In this document: positions 1 to 15,119 of the stretch, in pieces
How the letters are laid out: every line of letters starts with the position of its first letter
Position numbering within the stretch: the first letter of the stretch is position 1
Assembly: GCA_002937505.1 (NCBI GenBank)
Contig: PTJY01000002.1
Coordinates: 186,001 to 250,000, forward strand
DNA length: 64,000 bases
From: Alphaproteobacteria bacterium MarineAlpha12_Bin1
Lineage (GTDB): Bacteria; Pseudomonadota; Alphaproteobacteria; UBA6615
Direction: 5' to 3'
Made by a program: the position numbers and the translations under genes
Notes under the pieces: generated by a model
Databases searched by the model: none
What the model was told of the DNA's origin: nothing
The model's input: only the letters and a program-made list of their open reading frames with translations

Positions 1-581
1 CGTTAATGCACCCTCACATACCAAATTTTTATTATTCAGAAGGCAAAATACCTGATATCTATGGAAATCAGCACGCAAATGTTGCTCCGTATGATAAATT
101 CACCACAAAGACGGTAGAGGTATTCATTGCCGCTCTAAACAATCCTGCATTTAGAAGACTATGTACAGAGCTGGGACAGCCAGATCTTGCTAACGACCCA
201 CGTTTTAAAACTAACCCTGATAGAGTCGCTAATATTAGTGAATTAAGTGATAAGCTTTCATCTTTGATGGTAGACATAGATGGAGAAGATTTGTGCCAGC
301 GGCTTATGTTAAATGGAATTGCGGCAGGACCGGTATATAACACTGCGCAAGTAGTCGAACACCCTCACACCTCACATAGGGATATGTCCGTCAAATTAGA
401 CTGGTATCAGGGTTCCGGAATTCCAATAAAATTTTCCAGAACACCCGGATCAATTCGTTCCACCCCTCCAAGGTTTAGTGAGCATGGAAGAGAAATATTA
501 GCTCAACACGGCTTTAATGAGGATGAAATTGATTCCCTGGCTAAAAATCATGTGTTAGTTGAAGAACGTAAAAAACTCTGA
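1..581 (+). CDS. CaiB/BaiF (family III) CoA-transferase, C-terminal part
   Basis: This is the C-terminal part of a family III acyl-CoA transferase, an enzyme class that moves CoA between carboxylic acids. The reading frame is open to the left edge of the window, so the start and the catalytic Asp region lie outside; about 192 residues are visible. The visible part has the family's typical small-domain segment (FRRLCTELGQPDLANDPRF, then NGIAAGPVYN and a C-terminal PPRFSEHGREIL stretch). It heads a same-strand run with a thioesterase, an oxygenase and gentisate dioxygenase, which suggests that it loads CoA onto an aromatic or related acid. The substrate cannot be read from sequence. The family call is firm and the role is inferred. 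Confidence 0.85.
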   Translation, partial: LMHPHIPNFYYSEGKIPDIYGNQHANVAPYDKFTTKTVEVFIAALNNPAFRRLCTELGQPDLANDPRFKTNPDRVANISELSDKLSSLMVDIDGEDLCQRLMLNGIAAGPVYNTAQVVEHPHTSHRDMSVKLDWYQGSGIPIKFSRTPGSIRSTPPRFSEHGREILAQHGFNEDEIDSLAKNHVLVEERKKL

Positions 582-671
582 TGGTTAAGGCTACACTGTT
601 TGAAGAGGTCTACTCATTATTCTTCAATAGACAATGCTCACGGGAAATAATCCGAAATAAGGCTGCTTTTC

Positions 672-1103
672 ATGTTTAAAAACACCATTAAGATTCCAGT
701 AGAATGGGGACACTGCGATCCCGCGCGTATTGTTTTTTATCCCAATTACTTCAGTTGGTTTGACCAAGCAACAAGGCATTTATTTGATAAGGCCGGCCTA
801 AGTTATGACATTATGCATAACGAATATAAGACTCTGGGATTTCCACTTGTGGACGCACAAGCTGAATTCATTTCTCCTACTTTATTTGGAGATGAAATTG
901 AGGTCACCAGTCATATAAGCAAGTGGTGGAGAAAAACAATAGAAGTTAGCCATGAAATCACCAATGACGGCAAAACGGCGGTTAAAGGCAAGGAAATTAG
1001 AGTTTGGGCAGTAACAGATCCAGATAATCCTCGTAAGTTAAAGACCAAATTAATTCCCGAAGAGTTTAAATTGAAATTTGAAAAGATAAACACCACCGTT
1101 TAG
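672..1103 (+). CDS. 4-hydroxybenzoyl-CoA thioesterase-like hotdog protein
   Basis: This 143-residue protein is a single hotdog domain of the 4-HBT type. Residues 11-24 carry the signature segment GHCDPARIVFYPNY with the catalytic Asp at about residue 16, as in Pseudomonas 4-hydroxybenzoyl-CoA thioesterase; the length is normal for the family. It would hydrolyse an aromatic or other acyl-CoA to the free acid and CoA in the cytoplasm. It lies 90 bases after the CoA-transferase and upstream of a PaaA-like oxygenase and gentisate dioxygenase. Release of gentisate from gentisyl-CoA is therefore a plausible role, but this is inference; other acyl-CoAs are possible. Confidence 0.85.
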   Translation: MFKNTIKIPVEWGHCDPARIVFYPNYFSWFDQATRHLFDKAGLSYDIMHNEYKTLGFPLVDAQAEFISPTLFGDEIEVTSHISKWWRKTIEVSHEITNDGKTAVKGKEIRVWAVTDPDNPRKLKTKLIPEEFKLKFEKINTTV

Positions 1104-1263
1104 GAACACTTACTCTTTTCTCAAAATTAAATGTTATTCTAAAATTATTTCGTAAAGAACAGTACGCCTTTTCAATAAAAAAAAGAGGATTTAATTATTT
1201 AAGGATCATAAACAAGCCAAAATCTACTATTAAGAGATAGCGTTTTATAGGAAGAGAGTTTTA

Positions 1264-2292
1264 ATGAGTTTCTCTGTTAATATCAGGCAATTTAAGACCT
1301 CAATCGACGTTGAAATGGGGGAAACCATCTTAAGCGCAGCCTTAAAATCGGGAGTTCAGTTCCCTCATGGCTGCCAGTCGGGAAATTGCGGTGCCTGCAA
1401 GTCCCGCCTTTTTTCGGGAGACATTCAAATGTCGCCATACTCAGATTTTGCGCTCACAAAAGAAGAAAAAGAGTCTGGTTTAATACTTGCTTGTCGTTCG
1501 GTCCCCTGGAGTGATTGTGATCTAGCATATCTGGAACAAGATGATCTAGTTACTTTTCCGATCCGTAAACTAAATTGCACAGTCAAAGAAATACAACAAT
1601 TCACCCATGATATAGTTCGGATCTTTCTTGGTATAGATAGTGGTGGTCCATTTAACTTCGCTGCTGGTCAATATGCTAAAGTTTCTTTTGATAAATTTCC
1701 TCCACGGGATTATTCTATGGCTAGTTTACCAGCAGATGATTTTCTTGAATTTCATATCCGTCAGATTTCAGGGGGATTAACGAGTACACATGCTAATAAA
1801 AAATTAATCGTAGGTGAAACGGTTAGTTTGGAAGGCCCATTCGGGGTTTCCTACTTTAGGGAAAACCATACTGGTCCGTTAATAGCAATAGGTGGTGGCT
1901 CAGGCCTGGCACCAATAAAGTCGATCGTGGAAACAGCTCTTGAAAAAAATCGGAAACAACCAATACATCTTTATTTTGGAGCAAGAGACACCAGAGATGT
2001 TTACCTTGAAAGTCACTTCTTAAATCTAGAAAACAAACATGAAAACTTTACTTATACTTGTGTTTTATCAGAACCAAAAGAACTCACGAAATACCGCACA
2101 GGTCACCTTTTCGAAGCAGTTAGTGATGATTTTAATAGCTTAGACGGGGCTAAGGCCTATTTAGCAGGTCCTCCTATAATGGTAGAAACATGCATAAAAA
2201 AATTATGTGAGCTTGGCATTAGACAAGATGATTGTCATGCTGACGCGTTTTATACTGAAGCTGAAAAAGCAAAATTGGAGGTGCTTACGTGA
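1264..2292 (+). CDS. [2Fe-2S] ferredoxin / FAD-NAD(P)H oxidoreductase (oxygenase reductase component)
   Basis: This 342-residue reductase has an N-terminal plant-type ferredoxin domain followed by an FNR-like module. Cluster ligands are visible as C37, C42, C45 and C77. A flavin-binding RDYSMAS motif lies near residue 150 and a nucleotide-binding GGGSGLAPIKS loop near residue 220. The order matches reductases of aromatic-ring oxygenases (BenC, PaaE and related types). It would pass electrons from NAD(P)H to the diiron oxygenase encoded at 3254. A Shine-Dalgarno-like GGAAGAGAG precedes the ATG, and the 3' end overlaps the next gene by four bases, so the two are probably translationally coupled. 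Confidence 0.88.
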   Translation: MSFSVNIRQFKTSIDVEMGETILSAALKSGVQFPHGCQSGNCGACKSRLFSGDIQMSPYSDFALTKEEKESGLILACRSVPWSDCDLAYLEQDDLVTFPIRKLNCTVKEIQQFTHDIVRIFLGIDSGGPFNFAAGQYAKVSFDKFPPRDYSMASLPADDFLEFHIRQISGGLTSTHANKKLIVGETVSLEGPFGVSYFRENHTGPLIAIGGGSGLAPIKSIVETALEKNRKQPIHLYFGARDTRDVYLESHFLNLENKHENFTYTCVLSEPKELTKYRTGHLFEAVSDDFNSLDGAKAYLAGPPIMVETCIKKLCELGIRQDDCHADAFYTEAEKAKLEVLT

Positions 2293-3233
2293 ATAACTTT
2301 AATCAACTCCAAGGACGCGTGGCCATAGTATCTGGTGGAGCACGTGGAATTGGGCTAGCAATAGTTAAAACACTTGCTTCTCAAGGAGTAAAAGTTGTAA
2401 TTGCCGATAATGGAAGCAACATAAATGGTACAAATTTCGAAATTGATTTCGTCAAAAAAATTGCGGATGAACTAGGCCCTAATGTAATTGCAATTCCCCG
2501 ATCAGTCTCTAAGTCTGCAGACGCAAAGTACATTGTAGACTTCACCAATAATGAATTGGGTGGAGTTGATATATTAGTTAATAATGCTGCTATAATAAGA
2601 GACAGTTTTATTTTTAAGGGTGAACCAGATGATTTCGATTCAGTTTTAAGAACTAATTTATCTGGAGCCTGGTATTTGACCAACTCAGTAGCACCGATTA
2701 TGCGGCAGCAAACAAAGGAAGGTCGAGGCGGTGAACCATACAATTGGGGGCGTATAATCAACATAACATCGACAGCGGGATTTTATGGAAATTTTGGGCA
2801 ATCACCATATGCTAGTTCTAAGTCTGGTATGCTAGGCTTAATGCGCACAACAGCGATGGACCTAAACCGTGCAGGCATCACTTGTAATTCAATTGCGCCG
2901 TTTGCTGCTACTCGAGTAACCGAGACAATTAAGCCTGCTAATGATGAACAGTCGAGTTATAAGGAACGAGCTTTGAAAATCTCTCCTAAGCATGTAGCAA
3001 TCGTAGTGGCATGGCTTTGTTCAGAAAAGAGTCAACAAATCACCGGACAGCTTTTCGGCGTTCGAGGTAGAGAGGTTTTTTTATTTTCTCAACCTAGACC
3101 AGTGGCTAAAATTACCTCAGATGCAGACTGGGAAATAGATTCACTTGATGAGTCAGCTAGCAGATCATTCTCTGCGTTATATACAGATTTAAAAACCGAT
3201 TTAGAAGAGTTCAGTTCTGAGCCAAAAGTTTAG
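2289..3233 (+). CDS. Short-chain dehydrogenase/reductase, MFE-2-like
   Basis: This is a classical-fold SDR of 314 residues. The cofactor loop SGGARGIG starts at residue 15, NNAAI is near residue 98, and the catalytic residues are S161, Y174 and K178. The C-terminal GREVFLFSQPRPV stretch resembles the 3-hydroxyacyl-CoA dehydrogenase part of peroxisomal-type multifunctional enzymes, which fits a CoA-thioester substrate. The start overlaps the reductase stop (GTGA). Within the cluster it could oxidise or re-aromatise the product of the diiron oxygenase; that is an inference from position only. Confidence 0.85.
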   Translation: MNNFNQLQGRVAIVSGGARGIGLAIVKTLASQGVKVVIADNGSNINGTNFEIDFVKKIADELGPNVIAIPRSVSKSADAKYIVDFTNNELGGVDILVNNAAIIRDSFIFKGEPDDFDSVLRTNLSGAWYLTNSVAPIMRQQTKEGRGGEPYNWGRIINITSTAGFYGNFGQSPYASSKSGMLGLMRTTAMDLNRAGITCNSIAPFAATRVTETIKPANDEQSSYKERALKISPKHVAIVVAWLCSEKSQQITGQLFGVRGREVFLFSQPRPVAKITSDADWEIDSLDESASRSFSALYTDLKTDLEEFSSEPKV

Positions 3234-3253
3234 TCATCAAAAGAGTAATAAAA

Positions 3254-3970
3254 ATGATTATGACACCAGGAGATAAAGTCGAAACAGTAAGCGAATTTTC
3301 AATAGCACCAGAAGAATATCGTCAGGCTGTTGAGAAGATAGTAATTAGTCATGCAATAAATGAACTATACGGTGCTCAGGTTTTTGATGAACCAGCAATA
3401 GCGCTCGCGCCAACTCCTTACTCAAAATGGCTAACATGTAGAGTAGCTATGGAAGAATATGGCCACCATGTAAGATTTAGAGACTTAGGTAATGAAATTG
3501 GAATTTCTCCAGAGAGAATGGTCCCTAGTAATACAAAAAAACCACTTTCAATATTTGAATTTCCCCTCAAAACCTGGGAAGAGTTTTGTGTTATCAAGTT
3601 ATTGGCTGATCTTGCAGAAATTATACAAGTAGAAGATTTAGCACTTTGCAGCTTCCTACCCCTTCGGAATCTTTCTAGAATGACAATGCCAGAAGAACGC
3701 TTTCACGCCCAATTCGGAAAAGATTTTTGTACTGAAATATGTCAATCAGAAGAAGGAAAAAAGAAAGTACAGGATGCAATTAATAGATATTTTCCGATGC
3801 TGCCATCTTTCTTTGGTCGCCCAAATTCTAAAAATAATGAAATTTACCGAAAATGGTCTATCAAACAAAGGAAAAACGAAGAAATGCTAGAAGATTACAT
3901 GAAACGGACGAAAGAGTTGGTTGAAGAACTTGGTCTAACCTTGCCAACCGTAACCGGAGCCAAGCTCTAA
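3254..3970 (+). CDS. PaaA/PaaC-family diiron oxygenase subunit
   Basis: This 238-residue, largely helical protein fits the phenylacetyl-CoA epoxidase (Phenylacetic acid catabolic protein) family. Carboxylate and His ligands for two irons can be read as E37, E68 with H71 in EEYGHH, E122 or E127, and E148 with H151 in EERFH. In the characterised Paa system PaaA is catalytic and works with PaaB, PaaC, PaaD and the reductase PaaE. Here only one such subunit is visible, with a reductase two genes upstream. It probably epoxidises or hydroxylates an aryl-CoA. The missing partners could lie left of the window, or this could be a one-subunit variant. Confidence 0.8.
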   Translation: MIMTPGDKVETVSEFSIAPEEYRQAVEKIVISHAINELYGAQVFDEPAIALAPTPYSKWLTCRVAMEEYGHHVRFRDLGNEIGISPERMVPSNTKKPLSIFEFPLKTWEEFCVIKLLADLAEIIQVEDLALCSFLPLRNLSRMTMPEERFHAQFGKDFCTEICQSEEGKKKVQDAINRYFPMLPSFFGRPNSKNNEIYRKWSIKQRKNEEMLEDYMKRTKELVEELGLTLPTVTGAKL

Positions 3971-4003
3971 GCCCTATTACTCTATGGTTAATGGGAGAAA
4001 AAA

Positions 4004-5047
4004 ATGATCAGTGCAGATATAAGACCCGATCTAGAACCATATTATACTCAAGAGCTTGACCCTAAAAACCTTGCGCCTTTGTGGGAGGTCCTTCCCGGGA
4101 TAGCAAAAAAATCGCCCGAAAGCTCTTGTAAGCCGTTTATTTGGCATTATGAAAGTTTACGTGAAACACTGCTTAAATCGGCAGAATTGATAACTGCTGA
4201 AGAAGCTGAAAGGAGAGTTCTTATCTTAGAGAATCCTGGAATGCGTGGGCGTTTTCGAATTACAACGGCTCTTTTTGCAGGATTACAGTTAATTATGCCA
4301 GGCGAAGTTGCACCAGCCCACCGACATACCCAAGCAGCCTTGCGCTTTATAGTTGAAGGTAGCGGTGCTTATACGGCAGTAAATGGAGAACGAACCAATA
4401 TGGAAGAGGGTGACTTTGTTATAACCCCAGCTTGGACCTGGCACGATCACGGCAATGAAAGCAAGGAACCAATGGTTTGGATGGATGGTCTAGATATTCC
4501 GATTATAGAAACACTAGATGCAACCTTTGCAGAAAAATACAACGATAAATATCAAGTGCCCAGTAGGCCAGAGGGTGATTCATTGGCGCGTTTTGGCTCG
4601 GGCATGCTGCCAGTGGATTATTATGAAAAAGGCACAGTTTCAAAGGTTTTTAACTACCCTTATGCCAGAACTAGAGAGGCGCTAGAAACGATGCGTAAAT
4701 CTGAAGAATGGGATCCGTGCCACGGTCTAAAGCTCAGATTTGTTAATCCTGAAACTGGTGATTCCGCCATGCCAACCATTGGCACCAATATGCAGCTTTT
4801 ACCCAAAGGGTTCGAAACATCATCTTATCGATCAAGTGATGCTTGTGTATTTAGCATTGTTGAAGGATCAGGTGAGACCCATTTAGGGAATCAGGTTTAT
4901 AAGTGGTCGAAACGTGACACCTTTGTTGTTCCTAGCTGGCTTCCAGTAAAACATGTAGCTAATGAGGATGCAGTACTATTCAGTTTTTCTGATAAGCCTG
5001 TACAACTAATGGTAGGCGTCTGGCGTGAGGATCGTGGTAATTTATAA
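4004..5047 (+). CDS. Gentisate 1,2-dioxygenase
   Basis: This bicupin protein of 347 residues has the normal length for gentisate 1,2-dioxygenase. That enzyme cleaves gentisate (2,5-dihydroxybenzoate) with O2 to maleylpyruvate using Fe(II). Metal-ligand candidates in the first cupin are H106 and H108 (APAHRHTQ) and H147/H149 (WTWHDHG), close to the known H104/H106/H145 of the E. coli enzyme. The second, degenerate cupin lies at about 265-335. It stands in a CoA-thioester oxidation cluster, which points to gentisate as the end product of that upper pathway. No maleylpyruvate isomerase or hydrolase gene is visible in the window. Confidence 0.88.
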   Translation: MISADIRPDLEPYYTQELDPKNLAPLWEVLPGIAKKSPESSCKPFIWHYESLRETLLKSAELITAEEAERRVLILENPGMRGRFRITTALFAGLQLIMPGEVAPAHRHTQAALRFIVEGSGAYTAVNGERTNMEEGDFVITPAWTWHDHGNESKEPMVWMDGLDIPIIETLDATFAEKYNDKYQVPSRPEGDSLARFGSGMLPVDYYEKGTVSKVFNYPYARTREALETMRKSEEWDPCHGLKLRFVNPETGDSAMPTIGTNMQLLPKGFETSSYRSSDACVFSIVEGSGETHLGNQVYKWSKRDTFVVPSWLPVKHVANEDAVLFSFSDKPVQLMVGVWREDRGNL

Positions 5048-5596
5048 ATGGCTATCGAATCACTGGCCCTAAGTCGATTTACTAATCAAATAGAATCTGC
5101 ACCATGGTTTTCTTCTTTGGGAAAGGACCTGACGCTCGAAGAAACTGATTATGCCAGTAGGTATATTAAATCGATAGGACTTGAGGTGGTAAAAGTAGGA
5201 AAAATAGCCTCATGGGTAAAAGCAGAAAATTTGATTAAAGCGCCTGACTGGAGTGAGAGTTGGTGGGTCGCCGAAGAGCAAGAAAGGAAAAGCCTAACTT
5301 CTTTTGCAGAAAAGAAATATGGTAGAGAAAACTTATTTGAGTCTCTAAGTTACATTAGTAATTTCGTGTCAAATATTGTGCATGGTGCTGCAGCCATTTC
5401 AGCAGCGCAAGAGGGAGTGGCTAATTCGGGACTGATACGAGCCGCAGCTGGATCAGCAACTTTAGCCTCCCATCAGGCGGCTTTGGAAATTTTAGTCAAC
5501 AAACGTGCTACTGGACCATTTATATCAAAATATCGACTATTCGAGTCAGGTCATTGGCCATTATGCCTGAACAGTAAAGTGTTTTATATTTTTTGA
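5048..5596 (+). CDS. Unrecognised 182-residue protein of the gentisate cluster
   Basis: The family is not recognised. The gene begins directly at the gentisate dioxygenase stop (TAAATG), so it is almost certainly co-translated. The protein has no obvious signal peptide. It is helical in character, with an acidic helix containing WWVAEEQERKSL near residues 74-85 and an Ala-rich stretch near 112-146. The acidic helix distantly recalls the EENRHG helix of ferritin-like diiron proteins, but the His is absent, so this may be coincidence. The C-terminus is Trp/Phe-rich (GHWPLCLNSKVFYIF). It could be a small accessory subunit of the oxygenase at 3254; no function is claimed. Confidence 0.6.
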   Translation: MAIESLALSRFTNQIESAPWFSSLGKDLTLEETDYASRYIKSIGLEVVKVGKIASWVKAENLIKAPDWSESWWVAEEQERKSLTSFAEKKYGRENLFESLSYISNFVSNIVHGAAAISAAQEGVANSGLIRAAAGSATLASHQAALEILVNKRATGPFISKYRLFESGHWPLCLNSKVFYIF

Positions 5597-5621
5597 AACA
5601 TTCAAGGAAGAGAAATGAAAT

Positions 5622-7025
5622 ATGGTTCAAAAGAGAGATTGCAGACCCTTTTTGCAACCTAAAAGCGTAGCTGTTGTAGGGGCTAGTGAGCGCTTATCCA
5701 GTTCTGGTGGAGCGGTCTTGCGAAACATAATTTCATCAAAATTTCCAGGAGATGTGATCCCTGTAACTCCCAAGAACGAGAAAGTTTTAGGAATCACTAG
5801 TGTCAAATCCTTGTTAGAACTCAGTACCCCTGCTGAACTAGTTGTTATTGTCGTAAGACCCGATCTTATACTTGATATAGTTGATGAAGCCGCAATCTCC
5901 GGCCACAAAAACCTTATGATACTACCAGGTGGATTTAGTGAGGCAGGCCCAGTAGGGCAAGTTCGGGAGTCAGAACTTCTTAGAAAAACAGATGCTGCTG
6001 GTATTACTGTTTTTGGCCCGAATTCAGCAGGTTGTATTCATCTAAATAAACATTCACCATTTGCTGCAACTTTCCTTCGTGATTTACCACTAGGAGGAGG
6101 AATAGCATTAATTTCACAGTCAGGAGCTATATCTGAAGAAATAATAGCGACCGGTAATAAAAACAGCTTACCAATAAGTACCGTCATATCCGTTGGTAAT
6201 GCTGTTCATCTTGAGGTTATAGATTATTTAGAATTCCTCGGAGAACAAGACACATGTAGTTGTATTTTGCTTTATATGGAATCTGTAAACAATATTAAGA
6301 ATTTTGAACGAGTAGCTCGTAAAATTACGAAAAAAAAACCAGTGGTCGCTCTTATCGGGGGTCGAACAATGGAAGGGGGTCATGCGGTTCGCAACCACAC
6401 CGGAGGGTTGGCTATGACAGATTCTGAGGCAGTATCTTTCATGCAAAAATGCGGTATAATACGCGTGAAAAGTCTTCGTCAATTAATGTTAGCGGCTAAA
6501 GGTTTTGGTTTCTTTCCACAAGGTATAGGGAATAGGATACTTCTTTTCTCTAACTCGGGAGGACCCGGCGTAATAACAACGGACCATTTAATTGATAATA
6601 ATCTAAAAATGCCTCCTTTACCCAAAGAATACTCTCGTGACTTAAAAAATCTTTTACCTCCCGAAGCAGCTGTTTCAAATCCGATTGATATGCTTGCTGA
6701 CGCCAGAGAAGACCGTTTCGAAGCTGCATTTCTCTCTGCTCTAAAACATTGCAAAAATGAATATGATGCTATTTTAATGATACATGTTGTTCCGTTTATG
6801 GTAGACGCCAATCCTGTAATCAATGTAATGTCTTCATTAGCTAAAAAAGCCTCTTTTCCTGTATTTCATAGCATGATGGGAACGTTAGAAAATAAAATTG
6901 AATGGTTTACAAAAATGGAAAATTCAGGAGTTGCTATGTTCGAGAATTCCGAAGATATGGCAGAATCAGCAAGTATTCTTGCCCAATATCCCCTTCTGAA
7001 AAGCAGTAAAGAAAAAACCTTCTAA
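5622..7025 (+). CDS. ADP-forming acyl-CoA synthetase-like protein (CoA-binding alpha part only)
   Basis: This 467-residue protein has a CoA-binding Rossmann domain at about 1-130, then a succinyl-CoA-synthetase-like domain (SQSGAISEEI near residue 165) and a CoA-ligase domain. The phosphohistidine region is present as VRNHTGGLAM with H259. The ATP-grasp beta domain that normally drives thioester formation in NDP-forming acyl-CoA synthetases is absent from this protein and from the following gene. It is the last gene of the aromatic cluster and may help activate the acid substrate if a beta partner exists elsewhere. An AAGGAAGAGAA ribosome site about ten bases upstream supports the ATG chosen. 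Confidence 0.78.
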   Translation: MVQKRDCRPFLQPKSVAVVGASERLSSSGGAVLRNIISSKFPGDVIPVTPKNEKVLGITSVKSLLELSTPAELVVIVVRPDLILDIVDEAAISGHKNLMILPGGFSEAGPVGQVRESELLRKTDAAGITVFGPNSAGCIHLNKHSPFAATFLRDLPLGGGIALISQSGAISEEIIATGNKNSLPISTVISVGNAVHLEVIDYLEFLGEQDTCSCILLYMESVNNIKNFERVARKITKKKPVVALIGGRTMEGGHAVRNHTGGLAMTDSEAVSFMQKCGIIRVKSLRQLMLAAKGFGFFPQGIGNRILLFSNSGGPGVITTDHLIDNNLKMPPLPKEYSRDLKNLLPPEAAVSNPIDMLADAREDRFEAAFLSALKHCKNEYDAILMIHVVPFMVDANPVINVMSSLAKKASFPVFHSMMGTLENKIEWFTKMENSGVAMFENSEDMAESASILAQYPLLKSSKEKTF

Positions 7026-7565: not shown

Positions 7566-8612
7566 TTAAAATTTAGAAATCACTTCTTCAGAAAAAAGAG
7601 TAATAGATTTTCTAGCTAAATGTAGTGGCATATCAAAAAAATTTACTTGTAAGGAAGCAATGTCAAAATCACCTACTTGGTCCTTATAGCTTTTAATCTG
7701 ATCACATATCTGACTTGGTGTACCCACCCAGGCCGCGCCCTTTTCTAATTGGCTTTCAAATGATTCTTTAGCTAAATCCTTAATGAGTTGCCTGTAACCA
7801 GGATAATCAGAAGAAGCCTGATTGAGCCAATCTGAACCAGCATTAACAAGAGTCTTAAGATAATTATTAATTCTTGATTGGGAGAGATCAATTGCCTCTC
7901 TCTCATCAGGCCAACAGAACATATGAAAAGCCAGCATAACAGTTCCATTACCCTTGTGGCCGGCCGACTTCCAAGCTTCTCTATACAGGCCTATTAGCTC
8001 CGACATTTTTCCTCCGGACAAAGGAATTGCCATTATGGCATAGCCTGATTTCCCGGCTTCCTGAAACGATTGGGGGGTGGCAAATGCCGCTATATAAAAT
8101 GGAGGATGAGGCCTCTGAGTAGGCCTAGGGTAGGAGGTGGTCGGAGGAAATTTATGAAATTCACCATTTGAAGAAAAATCTTCTGTTTTCAGTAAGCCCT
8201 TTATTTGTTCAATACCTTCAGAAAAACGGCCCTTACTTTCGTCCAAAGAAACCCCAAATCGAGCAAACTCGTGGGGCATAAAAGCACGAGCAAATCCCAC
8301 ATCTAACCTACCTGAAGATATTGCGTCTAGCATACCAATTTCACCCGCCAGCTTTAGAGGGTTATTAAAAACCGGAAGGATAGCTCCTGTTACCAAACGA
8401 GCTTTTTTCGTCTTCTGTGATGCAGCGGCCAAAAATAACATTGGGTTGGGACTGTAACCACCATATGCATGAAAATAATGTTCTACAATACGGACATGCG
8501 AATAACCCAATTCATCAGCACAGCCAACCAGTGACAAGCATTCTTCAAAATATTTATCAGCGGGTTTTATTTCAGGACCAACACATGGAAAGAACTGCAT
8601 TCCAAATTTCAT
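7566..8612 (-). CDS. LLM-class (luciferase-like) flavin-dependent oxidoreductase
   Basis: This 348-residue protein belongs to the bacterial-luciferase-like superfamily, F420- or FMNH2-dependent TIM-barrel oxidoreductases. It starts MKFGMQFFPCVGPE, has HVRIVEHYFHAYGGYSPNP at about 38-56 (the usual EHHF region), and DVGFARAFMPHEFARFG at 103-119 matches the phosphate-binding region. The substrate is unknown; relatives attack sulfonates, nitriloacetate-type compounds and aromatics using a partner flavin reductase. It is transcribed convergently with the preceding membrane gene and divergently from the binding protein at 8801. Confidence 0.88.
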   Translation of the reverse strand: MKFGMQFFPCVGPEIKPADKYFEECLSLVGCADELGYSHVRIVEHYFHAYGGYSPNPMLFLAAASQKTKKARLVTGAILPVFNNPLKLAGEIGMLDAISSGRLDVGFARAFMPHEFARFGVSLDESKGRFSEGIEQIKGLLKTEDFSSNGEFHKFPPTTSYPRPTQRPHPPFYIAAFATPQSFQEAGKSGYAIMAIPLSGGKMSELIGLYREAWKSAGHKGNGTVMLAFHMFCWPDEREAIDLSQSRINNYLKTLVNAGSDWLNQASSDYPGYRQLIKDLAKESFESQLEKGAAWVGTPSQICDQIKSYKDQVGDFDIASLQVNFFDMPLHLARKSITLFSEEVISKF

Positions 8613-8800
8613 AATAACCTCATTAATCTACAATAGAAGTAATGGGTTTTAACATTAGCATTTAAAACTTTTAGGAAGAGCATGAATCAAAACCCAGGTG
8701 ACTGTATACTAATTGACAATCTTCGAAAAACTACTATCAGCTGTTGACCAATCTTAACGTCTTAACACAAGCTATAGAAAAATATTAATGGGAAAAACAT

Positions 8801-9724
8801 ATGTCTGATATTACTACTATAAAAATTATTGAATTTCCTAGTACTGGGCTACTTCCACATCATATAGCTGATGAAAAAGGATTTTTTTATGAAGAAGGTC
8901 TAGATATTGAAATTACCGCAACACCTAACTCCGTTTTTCAAATAACAAATTTAATTGATGGTAATTTTCATATTGCCGGTACAGCATTAGATAACATTAT
9001 AGCCTATCAGGAAGGACAGGGCGTAACAGAGCTATCACGTGATCCAGACTTGTTCGCTTTTATGGGCGCTTCTCAGGTGAACTTAAGCCTGGTAGTTCAA
9101 AAAGAATTTATTAACTACCAAGACCTTAAGGGGCAGAGCCTCGCTGTAGATGCATTATCCACAGGTTTCGCCTTTATGCTGCGCGAAATGCTCGAAATAA
9201 ATGGATTAAATCCTAATGAATATGAGTTAGTTCCCGTAGGGGCCACTAAGGCCCGTCTTGAATCTTTGGTCGAAGGAAAACATGCAGGAGCCTTATTGAA
9301 CCCTCCGTTTACAGAGGCGGGTGAATCTGCCGGGCTTAGAGTTATTGACAACAGCCAGAAATGTCTTCCCCCATGCCAAATTGGGGTGATGGCAGCATGT
9401 AAAAGCTGGGCTGAAAATAATACAGAGACACTGAGAGCTTTTATTAGGGCTGAGCTAAAAGCGATCAAATGGGCGACTGAGCCAGCCAACATAGACGAAA
9501 CAGTAAATATATTAGAGAGAAACATACCCGGCATGAGCAACAGTGATGCGAAAAGCGCAATGAAAATAATGCTTGACCCTAATCTCGGGCTAGCAAATAG
9601 TTATAGGATTAACGAGGAAGGCGTGGCTTTTATCCTCGCTTTGAGAAGTAAATATGGAGAACCTAAAAAGAAGTTGGTAGACCCGACACGCTATATCGAT
9701 TTGTCTTATGGTAATCTCCTTTGA
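8801..9724 (+). CDS. NMT1/THI5-like substrate-binding protein lacking a signal peptide
   Basis: This 307-residue protein has a periplasmic-binding-protein type II fold of the NMT1/THI5-like (SsuA/TauA) kind. Typical segments are LLPHHIADEKGFFYEEGLDI near the N-terminus, DLKGQSLAVDALSTGFAF near 109-126, and a downstream GKHAGALLNPPF. The N-terminus (MSDITTIKIIEF) has no hydrophobic leader and no lipobox, unlike the second NMT1-like protein in this window (16435). No ABC permease or ATPase adjoins it. It may act in the cytoplasm, as a sensor or as an enzyme in the manner of THI5, or an export signal may have been lost. Confidence 0.82.
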   Translation: MSDITTIKIIEFPSTGLLPHHIADEKGFFYEEGLDIEITATPNSVFQITNLIDGNFHIAGTALDNIIAYQEGQGVTELSRDPDLFAFMGASQVNLSLVVQKEFINYQDLKGQSLAVDALSTGFAFMLREMLEINGLNPNEYELVPVGATKARLESLVEGKHAGALLNPPFTEAGESAGLRVIDNSQKCLPPCQIGVMAACKSWAENNTETLRAFIRAELKAIKWATEPANIDETVNILERNIPGMSNSDAKSAMKIMLDPNLGLANSYRINEEGVAFILALRSKYGEPKKKLVDPTRYIDLSYGNLL

Positions 9725-9811
9725 ACTTCTCTGATTCAGTTTTTCGAATGATATATATTTTTACATATAGTTTTTATTGGACCAAGAAATCAGATTGCTA
9801 GGAAGGATGAT

Positions 9812-10669
9812 ATGATAAAAATTAGTGGGTTCCGCTATTGCAGATTGGGCACCGCAAATCTTAGTGAAACGATCAAGTTTGCTACTGAAATCATTGGACT
9901 TGAACTAGTTGATCAAAAAGACGGTTTCGCGTACTTAAGGTGTGATGATAGTGACCATAACGTCGTTTACTTTCAGGGCGATCCCGAGGATCACACGATA
10001 GGCCTTTCCCTGGATACATTTGAAGAACTTGATGCAGCTGAAAGTAGATTGGAAGCCATCGGCCGTCCTGTATATAGAGGCACTGATTCAGAGGCAGAGG
10101 CCAGACGGTGCATGGGATATATAAACTTTAAAGATACAAGTGGTAATTCTATAGACCTTAGTGTTAGGCCCTTTGCATCAGGAACAAGGTATTTTCCTTC
10201 AAGGGATGCGGGAATAACTGAATTCAGCCACATAGGACTAAGAGTAACTGACCCGAGGGAAGCTGAGAAATTTTGGTCGCAGGAGTTTAATTTTAGGACT
10301 AGTGATTGGATTGGTTGGTCAGCACTTATGACATTCGATGAAGTGCACCACCGCTACGCCCTATTTCCTTCTAATAAACCCGGGATACAACATGTTAATT
10401 TTCAGGTGGCTGAAACGGATGATATAATGAAATCAAACTACTTCCTCCGTGATCGCCAGGTGCGTATCCAAGCAGGGCCCGGCAGGCATTCTTTATCAGG
10501 AGCTAGATTTGTTTACTATTATGGCCCAGATAACATGATATATGAATATTCTTGTGGGGTTCGGATGGTCGACGAAAACTGGGAGCCACGCCAATTTCCT
10601 ATTAATGAAGCCTCTTTCTGCGCTTGGGGCTCCAAACCAGATCTAGACATTCTAGAATCAGAAAGTTAA
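9812..10669 (+). CDS. Type I extradiol ring-cleavage dioxygenase (VOC superfamily)
   Basis: This protein of 285 residues is built from two vicinal-oxygen-chelate domains, like 2,3-dihydroxybiphenyl or catechol 2,3-dioxygenases. The C-terminal domain keeps all three Fe(II) ligands: H140 (EFSHIGL), H194 (IQHVNFQ) and E245 (IYEYSCG). It should therefore be catalytically competent in meta-cleavage of a catechol-type ring. The N-terminal domain is the usual structural copy. It follows the NMT1-like protein by 87 bases on the same strand. With the gentisate dioxygenase it makes a second ring-cleaving enzyme within 6 kb, which supports an aromatic-degradation region. Confidence 0.87.
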   Translation: MIKISGFRYCRLGTANLSETIKFATEIIGLELVDQKDGFAYLRCDDSDHNVVYFQGDPEDHTIGLSLDTFEELDAAESRLEAIGRPVYRGTDSEAEARRCMGYINFKDTSGNSIDLSVRPFASGTRYFPSRDAGITEFSHIGLRVTDPREAEKFWSQEFNFRTSDWIGWSALMTFDEVHHRYALFPSNKPGIQHVNFQVAETDDIMKSNYFLRDRQVRIQAGPGRHSLSGARFVYYYGPDNMIYEYSCGVRMVDENWEPRQFPINEASFCAWGSKPDLDILESES

Positions 10670-13618: not shown

Positions 13619-14422
13619 ATGACAAAAGAAAACCCCCAGACGGTTTATAACAACTCTAGATTCCGAGTAGTTGACTATAATTTCGATATGTTCATTGGCC
13701 CAGCAGCAGGTGAACAGTTCAAAGATTTTACATTGACCGACCTTGAAAGTAGAGAAGAAGTTAAGCTATCTGATTTTTCTGGAAAATGGTTGGTTATTGA
13801 AACCGCTTCATCAACTTGTTCTATGTACACAAAAAACATTGTAACAATGAAAGACGTCGTAAAAAAATATCCTGACGTTGAGTTTATTACTGTATACGTT
13901 CGCGAAGCTCACCCAGGAGAAAGATTAGGTCCACACAAATCTATGGATGATAAATTTGGAGCTGCCAAAAGAATCGGACCTCGTTACGGTGAGTTTCGAA
14001 AAGTTTTAGTAGATAATTTAGATGGGGATTTTCACCGAGCCTATGGAGCCATGCCCAACGTTGTGTATATTATAAGGCCCGATGGCAAAATTCATTATCG
14101 CTGTAATTGGGCAGCTCCGCATCTGATAGAAAAGGCTCTTGATGATCGTGAAAGCTTTCACACTATAGAAAACGCTCCTACGGCTGAATTACGTGCCTCC
14201 AGGGCAATGCCTCACATGATAAGAACTATGTGGACAGGCGGATTTGTTGCTTTATACGATTTTTTCAAAGGTGCTCCTCTTACAGTAGCAAAACACGTGA
14301 AAGTCGATGCCTACTACGCAAAACATGGTCGATTTAAAAATCAACCAGTTTCCGACTCAGAGATGCAGGCAAGAATTAACGAATCAGATGGAACTAAGCC
14401 CAACAATCAAGCAGCAGAATAA
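13619..14422 (+). CDS. Deiodinase/redoxin-family protein with Cys in place of Sec
   Basis: This 267-residue thioredoxin-fold protein resembles the T4 deiodinase / peroxiredoxin-like redoxins. The active-site segment ETASSTCSMYTKN places C67 where animal iodothyronine deiodinases have selenocysteine. The motif TVYVREAHPGE near residues 91-101 matches the deiodinase YxxEAHP element. The Cys codon is TGT, so no selenocysteine machinery is needed. A C-terminal extension of about 80 residues follows the fold. A thiol-dependent reductase or reductive-dehalogenation role is possible. The gene stands alone, 215 bases after the exporter, and ends at a clear intrinsic terminator. Confidence 0.8.
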   Translation: MTKENPQTVYNNSRFRVVDYNFDMFIGPAAGEQFKDFTLTDLESREEVKLSDFSGKWLVIETASSTCSMYTKNIVTMKDVVKKYPDVEFITVYVREAHPGERLGPHKSMDDKFGAAKRIGPRYGEFRKVLVDNLDGDFHRAYGAMPNVVYIIRPDGKIHYRCNWAAPHLIEKALDDRESFHTIENAPTAELRASRAMPHMIRTMWTGGFVALYDFFKGAPLTVAKHVKVDAYYAKHGRFKNQPVSDSEMQARINESDGTKPNNQAAE

Positions 14423-14457
14423 TAAATTTTAATATAACAAATTTTTAAACATTCTAG

Positions 14458-14489
14458 CGACTGGCTTCTTTAATTGGCCAGTCGTTTTT
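14458..14489 (+). terminator. Intrinsic terminator after the deiodinase-like gene
   Basis: An 8-bp stem CGACTGGC/GCCAGTCG with an eleven-base loop is followed directly by TTTTTCTTT on the + strand, 36 bases after the stop codon of the deiodinase-like gene. This is a standard Rho-independent terminator shape. Confidence 0.85.
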
Positions 14490-14561
14490 CTTTACAAGAA
14501 TTACATGAAAAAAGAAAACTGAGCTAAAGAAATTTATAAATAGCGGTTTCTGAATAAATCC

Positions 14562-15119
14562 TTATTTTCGTTTTTTTGTTTTGCTCAAAGAATCAATAAT
14601 GAATTGGTACATTTCTGTTTTTGATTGTTCAATAAAACTACCGCCACCAGTATTTATTGAGAAATCGCTTTTTTTAGGAACCTCATAAGGATTTGAATCT
14701 GAGTATCCGACTAAATCAGTTATTAGACCATTATCGGCCGAAGAATAGAGTCCTTTAGGATCTCTCTCTTTTAAACTTTCAAGATCTGTTTTTATGTATA
14801 TTAATCGAAAGTTTGCACCTAATTTAGTTCTTACAGCTACTCTCGCTTCCTCATAGGGGCTAATTACAGAAACAATAACAACGTCAAATAAATTTTTGTA
14901 CTCTACGCATATGTTGGCAATACCCAAATTATTTTTCATCACATCATCACGACTAAAACCTAATTTTTTTTTATATTTTTTTCTAACGTCATCACCGTCA
15001 ATAACCAAAACTTTTAAATCAATATCTGTGAGCATTTGTTCAACTGCTCTTGAAAGAGTCGTTTTTCCCGACCCCGACATGCCAGTAAGCCAAATAAATA
15101 GTGCGTCACATGTTTTCAT
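14562..15119 (-). CDS. cysC: Adenylylsulfate kinase-like protein
   Basis: This 185-residue P-loop kinase resembles APS kinase, which phosphorylates adenylyl sulfate to PAPS. Walker A is GMSGSGKT at 13-20. VIDGDDVRKKY and LGFSRDDVMKNN follow the family pattern, and ISPYEEAR and RDPKGLY are the later conserved boxes. It lies four bases downstream of the short pyruvate-kinase-like gene on the same strand, so the two are probably one unit. No ATP sulfurylase or PAPS reductase gene is nearby, so a role outside assimilatory sulfate reduction, such as modifying a surface sugar, is possible. Confidence 0.82.
   Translation of the reverse strand: MKTCDALFIWLTGMSGSGKTTLSRAVEQMLTDIDLKVLVIDGDDVRKKYKKKLGFSRDDVMKNNLGIANICVEYKNLFDVVIVSVISPYEEARVAVRTKLGANFRLIYIKTDLESLKERDPKGLYSSADNGLITDLVGYSDSNPYEVPKKSDFSINTGGGSFIEQSKTEMYQFIIDSLSKTKKRK

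Follow-up and report, generated by a model that had tools for sequence, protein, structure and literature searches.

Here we describe a run of genes at bases 1 to 7025 of a 64,000-nucleotide stretch of DNA from Alphaproteobacteria bacterium MarineAlpha12_Bin1 (hereafter the window; bases 186001-250000 of contig 5, in a genome of 2.34 Mb). The run encodes a single diiron protein related to PaaA, together with a reductase, a short-chain dehydrogenase/reductase (SDR), and a 182-residue protein that we call o182. The conserved unit across genomes is reductase-SDR-PaaA-like-o182, with gentisate 1,2-dioxygenase (GDO) as a frequent partner. On balance, these four components probably form a module for the diiron-dependent oxidation of aryl-coenzyme A (aryl-CoA) thioesters that feeds GDO, a reading to which we give slightly better than even chances from the predicted proteins and their neighborhoods.

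A conserved unit around a PaaA-like diiron protein

We scanned 84,980 species genomes for relatives of the PaaA-like protein and found at least 221, from which 80 loci were kept for neighborhood counts; neighbors of the SDR, reductase, o182, acyl-CoA synthetase alpha, and GDO types were counted on the same strand within 6 kb of the PaaA-like gene. The kept loci were mostly from Alphaproteobacteria (marine lineages, Reyranella, Enhydrobacter, Vineibacter, and Iodidimonas), and the nearest named relatives of the window are alphaproteobacterial metagenome-assembled genomes, several of them marine. Beside the PaaA-like gene, an SDR gene was present in 79 of the 80 loci, a reductase gene in 76, and o182 in 70, usually in the order reductase-SDR-PaaA-like-(GDO)-o182. 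The acyl-CoA synthetase alpha gene was near in 33 loci and GDO in 31. The neighborhood, far from being kept in no relative, is thus strongly conserved across these loci. The genes of the run are also under purifying selection relative to a sister genome (for the PaaA-like gene, 0.022 nonsynonymous substitutions per site [dN] and 0.40 synonymous substitutions per site [dS]); a chance neighborhood or decayed genes were ruled out by synteny across families and dN/dS. No relative of the PaaA-like protein was found on viral contigs, and plasmids gave only more distant matches, those listed being ordinary PaaA with approximately 30% identity.

The four core genes can also be missing together. Three relatives (L132, L133, and L134) keep the arrangement of a tripartite ATP-independent periplasmic (TRAP) transporter with GDO, the latter 72% identical to that of the window, and the genes for the reductase, SDR, PaaA-like protein, and o182 are all absent. 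Normally, GDO stands between o182 and the rest of the core, yet here o182 is absent along with the other core genes. These relatives are a natural case in which the four genes were lost, or are absent, as a group.

Judging from its sequence, the diiron protein is a relative of PaaA rather than a PaaA, because its clade is split from that of PaaA, the lysine bridge of PaaA is lost, PaaB is not found in the genome, and a BoxB is the only other PF05138 protein. It scored 98.9 bits against the TIGR02156 model of PaaA, under the cutoff of 280. In a sample of 95 relative genomes (16 with the PaaA-like clade and 79 without), its homologs fell into two groups with nothing between them, showing 66 to 95% identity within the 16-genome clade and at most approximately 31% for the others, including ordinary PaaA. 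Its AlphaFold2 model had a mean predicted local distance difference test score (pLDDT) of 94.7, and the structural matches were PaaA (3pw8; template modeling score [TM], 0.85) and a short archaeal protein, SSO1313 (TM, 0.83), followed by PaaC and BoxB.

The putative iron ligands are fully conserved. E37, E68, H71, D119, E148, and H151 were invariant in 43 of the 43 aligned members of the clade, as was E122, bearing out the five diiron ligands (E37, E68, H71, E148, and H151) named in the preliminary description of this DNA. D119 occupies the position of Asp126 of PaaA, and the substrate-orienting Phe108 of PaaA is retained as F101. In PaaA, Lys68 forms a bridge with Glu49, Glu72, and Asp126 (residue roles from PMC4498308). 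The position of Lys68 is Val in 40 of the 43 members and Ile in 2, with one read as X, and that of Glu49 is Asp45 in the window protein.

The preliminary description had pointed to a single PaaA-like protein that stands without PaaB, PaaC, and PaaD, and this was borne out. None of paaB, paaC, and paaD was found upstream of the run, and the genome encodes neither a PaaA elsewhere nor a PaaC, a BoxB being the one further PF05138 protein in it. A missing paaABCDE set was sought just upstream and elsewhere in the genome and was absent. The window protein did not match TIGR03225 (BoxB); the BoxB of the genome is encoded elsewhere, on C1.

The fourth component, o182, was considered as a diverged, hidden PaaC, and this found no support: it had no match to PF05138 in the profile search, and its confident model (pLDDT, 93.9) gave no PaaC-like match. 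The best match of the model was the RhsI2 immunity protein, with a Z score of 12.3 over 144 residues and 4.2 for the next unrelated entry. Weak matches to the Imm5_like family came from two o182 members (best E, 5e-4). The resemblance of o182 to RhsI2 in fold does not by itself imply a common function.

Links to gentisate and CoA and the routes that fit them

A full GDO was encoded in 15 of the 16 genomes with the PaaA-like clade versus 14 of the 79 without it (P = 9e-9); in the sixteenth genome, the GDO gene is truncated where a contig stops. Among genomes not belonging to the window's own family, GDO was present in 4/4 module genomes versus 6/67 others (P = 2e-4). We checked nine further genomes with the core (Reyranella, Enhydrobacter, Vineibacter, Iodidimonas, Desertibaculum, and others), and all nine had a full GDO, located outside the cluster in seven. 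The window's genome encodes two maleylacetoacetate/maleylpyruvate isomerase homologs scoring over the cutoff and several hydrolases of the fumarylacetoacetate hydrolase family. Near the module, a TRAP transporter gene was found in approximately 20 of the 80 loci, a fumarylpyruvate-hydrolase-like gene in approximately 17, and a maleylpyruvate-isomerase-like gene in 4.

The link to CoA comes from the thioesterases and the SDR. Hotdog thioesterases of two different families were near the module in 46 loci in all, 12 with the 4HBT-I type and 34 others with the PaaI type. The best solved relatives of the window's thioesterase are the 4-hydroxybenzoyl-CoA thioesterases 5wh9 and 1bvq, and its Asp16 and Asp31 correspond to active-site residues of the gentisyl-CoA thioesterase BH1999 (PMC516016). 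The nearest PDB relatives of the SDR are of two kinds, long SDRs of approximately 320 residues and the (3R)-hydroxyacyl-CoA dehydrogenase domains found in multifunctional enzyme 2/17beta-HSD4, and it shares with these domains the stretch YGNFGQxxYxxSK; Y174 and K178 were conserved in at least 97% of 72 sequences. Because C2 of the ring takes the beta position in an aryl-CoA, a dearomatized ring hydroxylated at C2 would be a fitting substrate for an SDR of this type. The reductase has the domain order of BenC, GcoB, and TmoF, with the ferredoxin domain first, and not that of PaaE, in which it comes last (PMC4498308). Its best NCBIfam match was BenC (194 bits, under the cutoff of 430), its PDB relatives were 5ogx, 1krh, and 4wqm, and its cluster cysteines C37, C42, C45, and C77 were conserved in at least 97% of 57 sequences. 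Taken with GDO, the hotdog thioesterases and the SDR with its CoA-type relatives speak for a route to gentisate through thioesters, as suggested in the preliminary description, although the conserved unit is reductase-SDR-PaaA-like-o182 and not a lone PaaA with GDO. A MarR regulator had been considered as a sign of a CoA ligand and was dropped, because its nearest family (Saro_0803) is known from work on a regulator of nov1 that responds to resveratrol.

From the observed gene content and its conservation, the joint absence of the core genes, the predicted fold with its iron ligands, and the families of the thioesterase and dioxygenase, we infer the following scheme for the substrate (a CoA thioester), the chemistry of oxygenation, the step catalyzed by the SDR, and the part played by o182. 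A carboxylic acid would be taken up, by the TRAP transporter in many relatives, and converted to its CoA thioester. Ring oxygenation would fall to the single PaaA-like diiron chain, which would receive electrons from the BenC-type reductase, and the SDR would re-aromatize the ring by oxidizing an alcohol on the carbon in the position beta to the thioester. Gentisate, through which aromatic rings are commonly opened, would then be released from gentisyl-CoA by the 4HBT-I thioesterase and cleaved by GDO. If the substrate were benzoyl-CoA, oxygenation, hydration, and dehydrogenation would supply both new oxygens in a redox-neutral manner, with every core enzyme used. If it were 3-hydroxybenzoyl-CoA or salicylyl-CoA, one hydroxylation would be enough, and the SDR would be left with another job.

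Several observations weigh against this scheme. The lysine bridge of PaaA is lost, as described above. Inside the window's own family, the co-occurrence of GDO with the module was not significant (P = 0.3). The activation step is the weak point, with no enzyme that explains CoA loading, because AMP-forming CoA ligases were near in only 4 of the 80 loci and a convincing beta partner for the acyl-CoA synthetase alpha subunit is missing: no beta subunit is linked to it in the window, and the genome has one weak ATP-grasp_5 match elsewhere. This alpha subunit is a possible candidate for the activating enzyme from its family; as a clear aryl-CoA ligase it was unsupported, having no clear beta partner. 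In one relative (L042), an MhpA-type FAD aromatic hydroxylase gene (13772-14968) directly follows the acyl-CoA synthetase alpha gene.

The distribution of o182 weighs against the scheme as well. Six loci with room for o182 are without it, and therefore it is not strictly required. Copies without a PaaA-like gene occur in several Alphaproteobacteria, where they stand by themselves or are accompanied by no more than GDO or the reductase, which rules out o182 as strictly module-bound. These PaaA-less copies lie mostly between ftsK-lolA and xthA (L144-L152, e.g., L145 6953-7549 and L151 7805-8443); o182 adjoins a module-type reductase gene in L144 and L152 and GDO in L142. In a tree, 10 of the 11 PaaA-less copies formed one clade nested among module-linked copies (midpoint root, direction unproven). 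With the root not known, this nested clade fits the erosion of a once complete module at the ftsK-lolA/xthA site.

The choice of substrate divides the readings further. Benzoyl-CoA accounts best for the SDR, but it is made less likely by BoxB in the same genomes, which was encoded in 14/16 module genomes versus 19/79 without the module. Since BoxB is enriched in this way, the co-occurrence of GDO in part reflects an aromatic-degrading lifestyle. In the window's genome (L004 7914-10973), the gene just upstream of that for BoxB looks like BoxC by position and size, and from these two genes benzoyl-CoA probably has its own route there. We consider it rather unlikely that, in the most specific form of the scheme, the lone PaaA-like protein, the BenC-type reductase, and the SDR turn benzoyl-CoA into gentisyl-CoA, as a diiron CoA-thioester counterpart of the Rieske benzoate system, with o182, which resembles an immunity protein in fold, as a component that hydrates the epoxide, helps to form the complex, or shields the diiron site. 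In a narrower form, the diiron protein would add one hydroxyl to 3-hydroxybenzoyl-CoA or salicylyl-CoA to give gentisyl-CoA, as a diiron counterpart of SdgC, and the SDR would act elsewhere, on a side chain or an upstream precursor. A second benzoyl-CoA enzyme would be redundant next to BoxB, a known benzoyl-CoA enzyme, and SdgC performs the same step on salicylyl-CoA (PMC13215587 and PMC4600096). However, this form fails to explain the hydroxyacyl-CoA-type SDR gene directly before the PaaA-like gene in 79 of the 80 loci, and we regard it as a real possibility that falls short of an even chance.

Two further readings depart from the aryl-CoA scheme in its CoA part or its gentisate part. The module may convert a free aromatic acid or other non-CoA compound to gentisate, with the thioesterase, CoA-transferases, and acyl-CoA synthetase alpha serving neighboring reactions. 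This would fit the lack of a dedicated aryl-CoA ligase in most clusters, the confinement of the CoA-transferases to near relatives, and the 34 of 80 loci with no hotdog thioesterase nearby. It is nevertheless unlikely in view of the CoA thioesters used by the closest characterized homologs, PaaA and BoxB, the retained Phe108 of PaaA, the two different thioesterase families near the module, and the hydroxyacyl-CoA type of the SDR. The core might instead be an acyl-CoA oxidation system unrelated to gentisate, with GDO next to it through chance clustering of catabolic genes; GDO is adjacent in just 31 of the 80 loci, and some relatives retain GDO and TRAP without the module. On the other hand, many loci of several families have GDO within the module, flanked by the PaaA-like gene and o182, and GDO was found in full in all nine further core genomes and at the frequencies given above outside the window's family, which makes an unrelated system quite improbable.

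The gene run and its surroundings

All genes of the run lie on one strand and are closely packed, with gaps of -4 to 160 bp (Table 1); the SDR gene overlaps the reductase gene by 4 bp. Profile searches confirmed the CoA-transferase, 4HBT thioesterase, reductase, SDR, PaaA-like protein, and GDO that the preliminary description had read from this strand; that account passed over o182 and the acyl-CoA synthetase alpha gene within the same span, and its overall interpretation was partly supported.

Table 1. Genes of the run, with positions in the window
Feature	Position	Strand	Evidence
Class III CoA-transferase (CaiB/formyl-CoA type), C-terminal part	1..581	+	PF02515, 101 bits
4HBT-I type hotdog thioesterase, candidate gentisyl-CoA thioesterase	672..1103	+	PF13279/PF03061; Asp16, Asp31 present
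Reductase, N-terminal [2Fe-2S] then FAD, NAD domains	1264..2292	+	PF00111, PF00970, PF00175
SDR dehydrogenase, long hydroxyacyl-CoA-dehydrogenase-like type, ~310 aa	2289..3233	+	PF00106, 138.6 bits
PaaA-like diiron protein, 238 aa, presumed oxygenase	3254..3970	+	PF05138, 95 bits (cutoff 28.5)
Gentisate 1,2-dioxygenase (GDO)	4004..5047	+	TIGR02272, 521 bits (cutoff 442); best PDB 2d40
o182, conserved 182-aa partner, function unassigned, mostly helical predicted fold	5048..5596	+	No significant Pfam match
Acyl-CoA synthetase (NDP-forming) alpha subunit	5622..7025	+	TIGR02717, 353.9 bits (cutoff 567)

The class III CoA-transferase is cut by the window edge; the whole protein has 406 residues (L003 13361-14581), its gene starts 640 bp left of base 1, and it is kept in near relatives only (4 of the 80 loci). 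Left of base 1 are this gene start, a 132-residue cupin gene, and a pair of class I CoA-transferase genes, and farther left, divergently oriented, are acyl-CoA dehydrogenase, molybdenum hydroxylase, and glutathione S-transferase genes. The molybdenum protein is a 797-residue subunit of the CO-dehydrogenase/xanthine-dehydrogenase type (L003 7504-9897), encoded beside the acyl-CoA dehydrogenase with no other subunits adjacent; L031 has two such subunits in tandem. A 762-residue open reading frame (L003 3113-5401), judged by eye, is an apparent fusion of an FAD oxidoreductase and a selenophosphate-synthase-like domain. To the right of the run, bases 7566-10669 of the window encode a luciferase-like monooxygenase, an NMT1-like binding protein, and an extradiol-like protein (named by eye), which are kept next to the module in the same genus (L040 and L044).

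Relation to known systems

Precedents exist for CoA-linked gentisate formation, for a gentisyl-CoA thioesterase, and for PaaA relatives that act as single chains; a limited search of the open-access literature found no description of their combination with this SDR, reductase type, and o182 or of its wide conservation. If the aryl-CoA scheme is true, a common, unrecorded route of aromatic degradation may be hidden under PaaA annotations, which could mislead surveys whose only marker of phenylacetate degradation is paaA. PaaA-type diiron chemistry would then need neither PaaB/PaaC nor the lysine bridge and could be coupled to a dehydrogenase in a route ending at gentisate. Were benzoyl-CoA the substrate, gentisate would be a further aerobic fate of benzoyl-CoA next to the box route.

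The Phg pathway of Brevibacillus reportedly converts 4-hydroxybenzoyl-CoA to gentisyl-CoA by an NIH shift, followed by a thioesterase, with a flavin 1-hydroxylase and an AMP-forming ligase; it resembles the window as a CoA-linked gentisate route with a thioesterase, but its hydroxylase and ligase are not in the window cluster. Hydroxylation in the Sdg pathway of Streptomyces WA46 is carried out by SdgC, a flavin enzyme, whereas the window has a diiron protein and an SDR, with no flavin aromatic hydroxylase adjoining GDO. Neither a flavin salicylyl-CoA 5-hydroxylase nor an AMP-forming salicylyl-CoA synthetase was found in the window cluster or its flanks. The Sdg pathway is similar in leading from salicylyl-CoA through gentisyl-CoA to gentisate, with thioester hydrolysis and GDO (PMC4600096). 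BH1999 of Bacillus halodurans likewise is a 4HBT-I hotdog thioesterase with Asp16/Asp31 in a gentisate cluster (PMC516016), known since 2004, and on this point the preliminary description needs correction, a gentisyl-CoA thioesterase in such a cluster being no novelty by itself. PMC516016 describes no diiron module beside the BH1999 gene, the neighborhood of which we did not examine ourselves.

BenABCD, the benzoate dioxygenase with its cis-diol dehydrogenase, follows a similar logic of a BenC-like reductase, an oxygenase, and an SDR, but it uses a Rieske oxygenase on the free acid and yields catechol, in contrast to the diiron PaaA-like protein and gentisate of the window. Sulfolobus SSO1313 (PDB 4mud), the short PaaA-like protein that closely matched our model, has only 23% identity to the window protein, and we know of no established function for it. 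In the BoxAB/BoxC benzoyl-CoA 2,3-epoxidase system, BoxB is a PaaA relative that acts on an aryl-CoA without a structural subunit (PMC4498308); contrary to the preliminary description, working without PaaB and PaaC therefore has a precedent in this single-chain relative. However, BoxB has approximately 470 residues, a BoxA partner, and ring opening by BoxC/D, whereas the window protein is half its size and a separate, true BoxB is encoded in the same genome. The phenylacetyl-CoA 1,2-epoxidase PaaABCE shares with the window module the PF05138 fold, the positions of the diiron ligands, reductase-fed oxygenation, and the equivalent of Phe108. It differs in having PaaB and PaaC, a PaaA of approximately 310 residues versus 238 (the C-terminal part is absent in the window protein), a lysine where the window clade has Val or Ile, and a PaaE with the ferredoxin domain last rather than first (PMC4498308), and the SDR and o182 are additions of the window module. 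PaaABCE leads to ring opening through an oxepin, and the window module is associated with gentisate cleavage instead.

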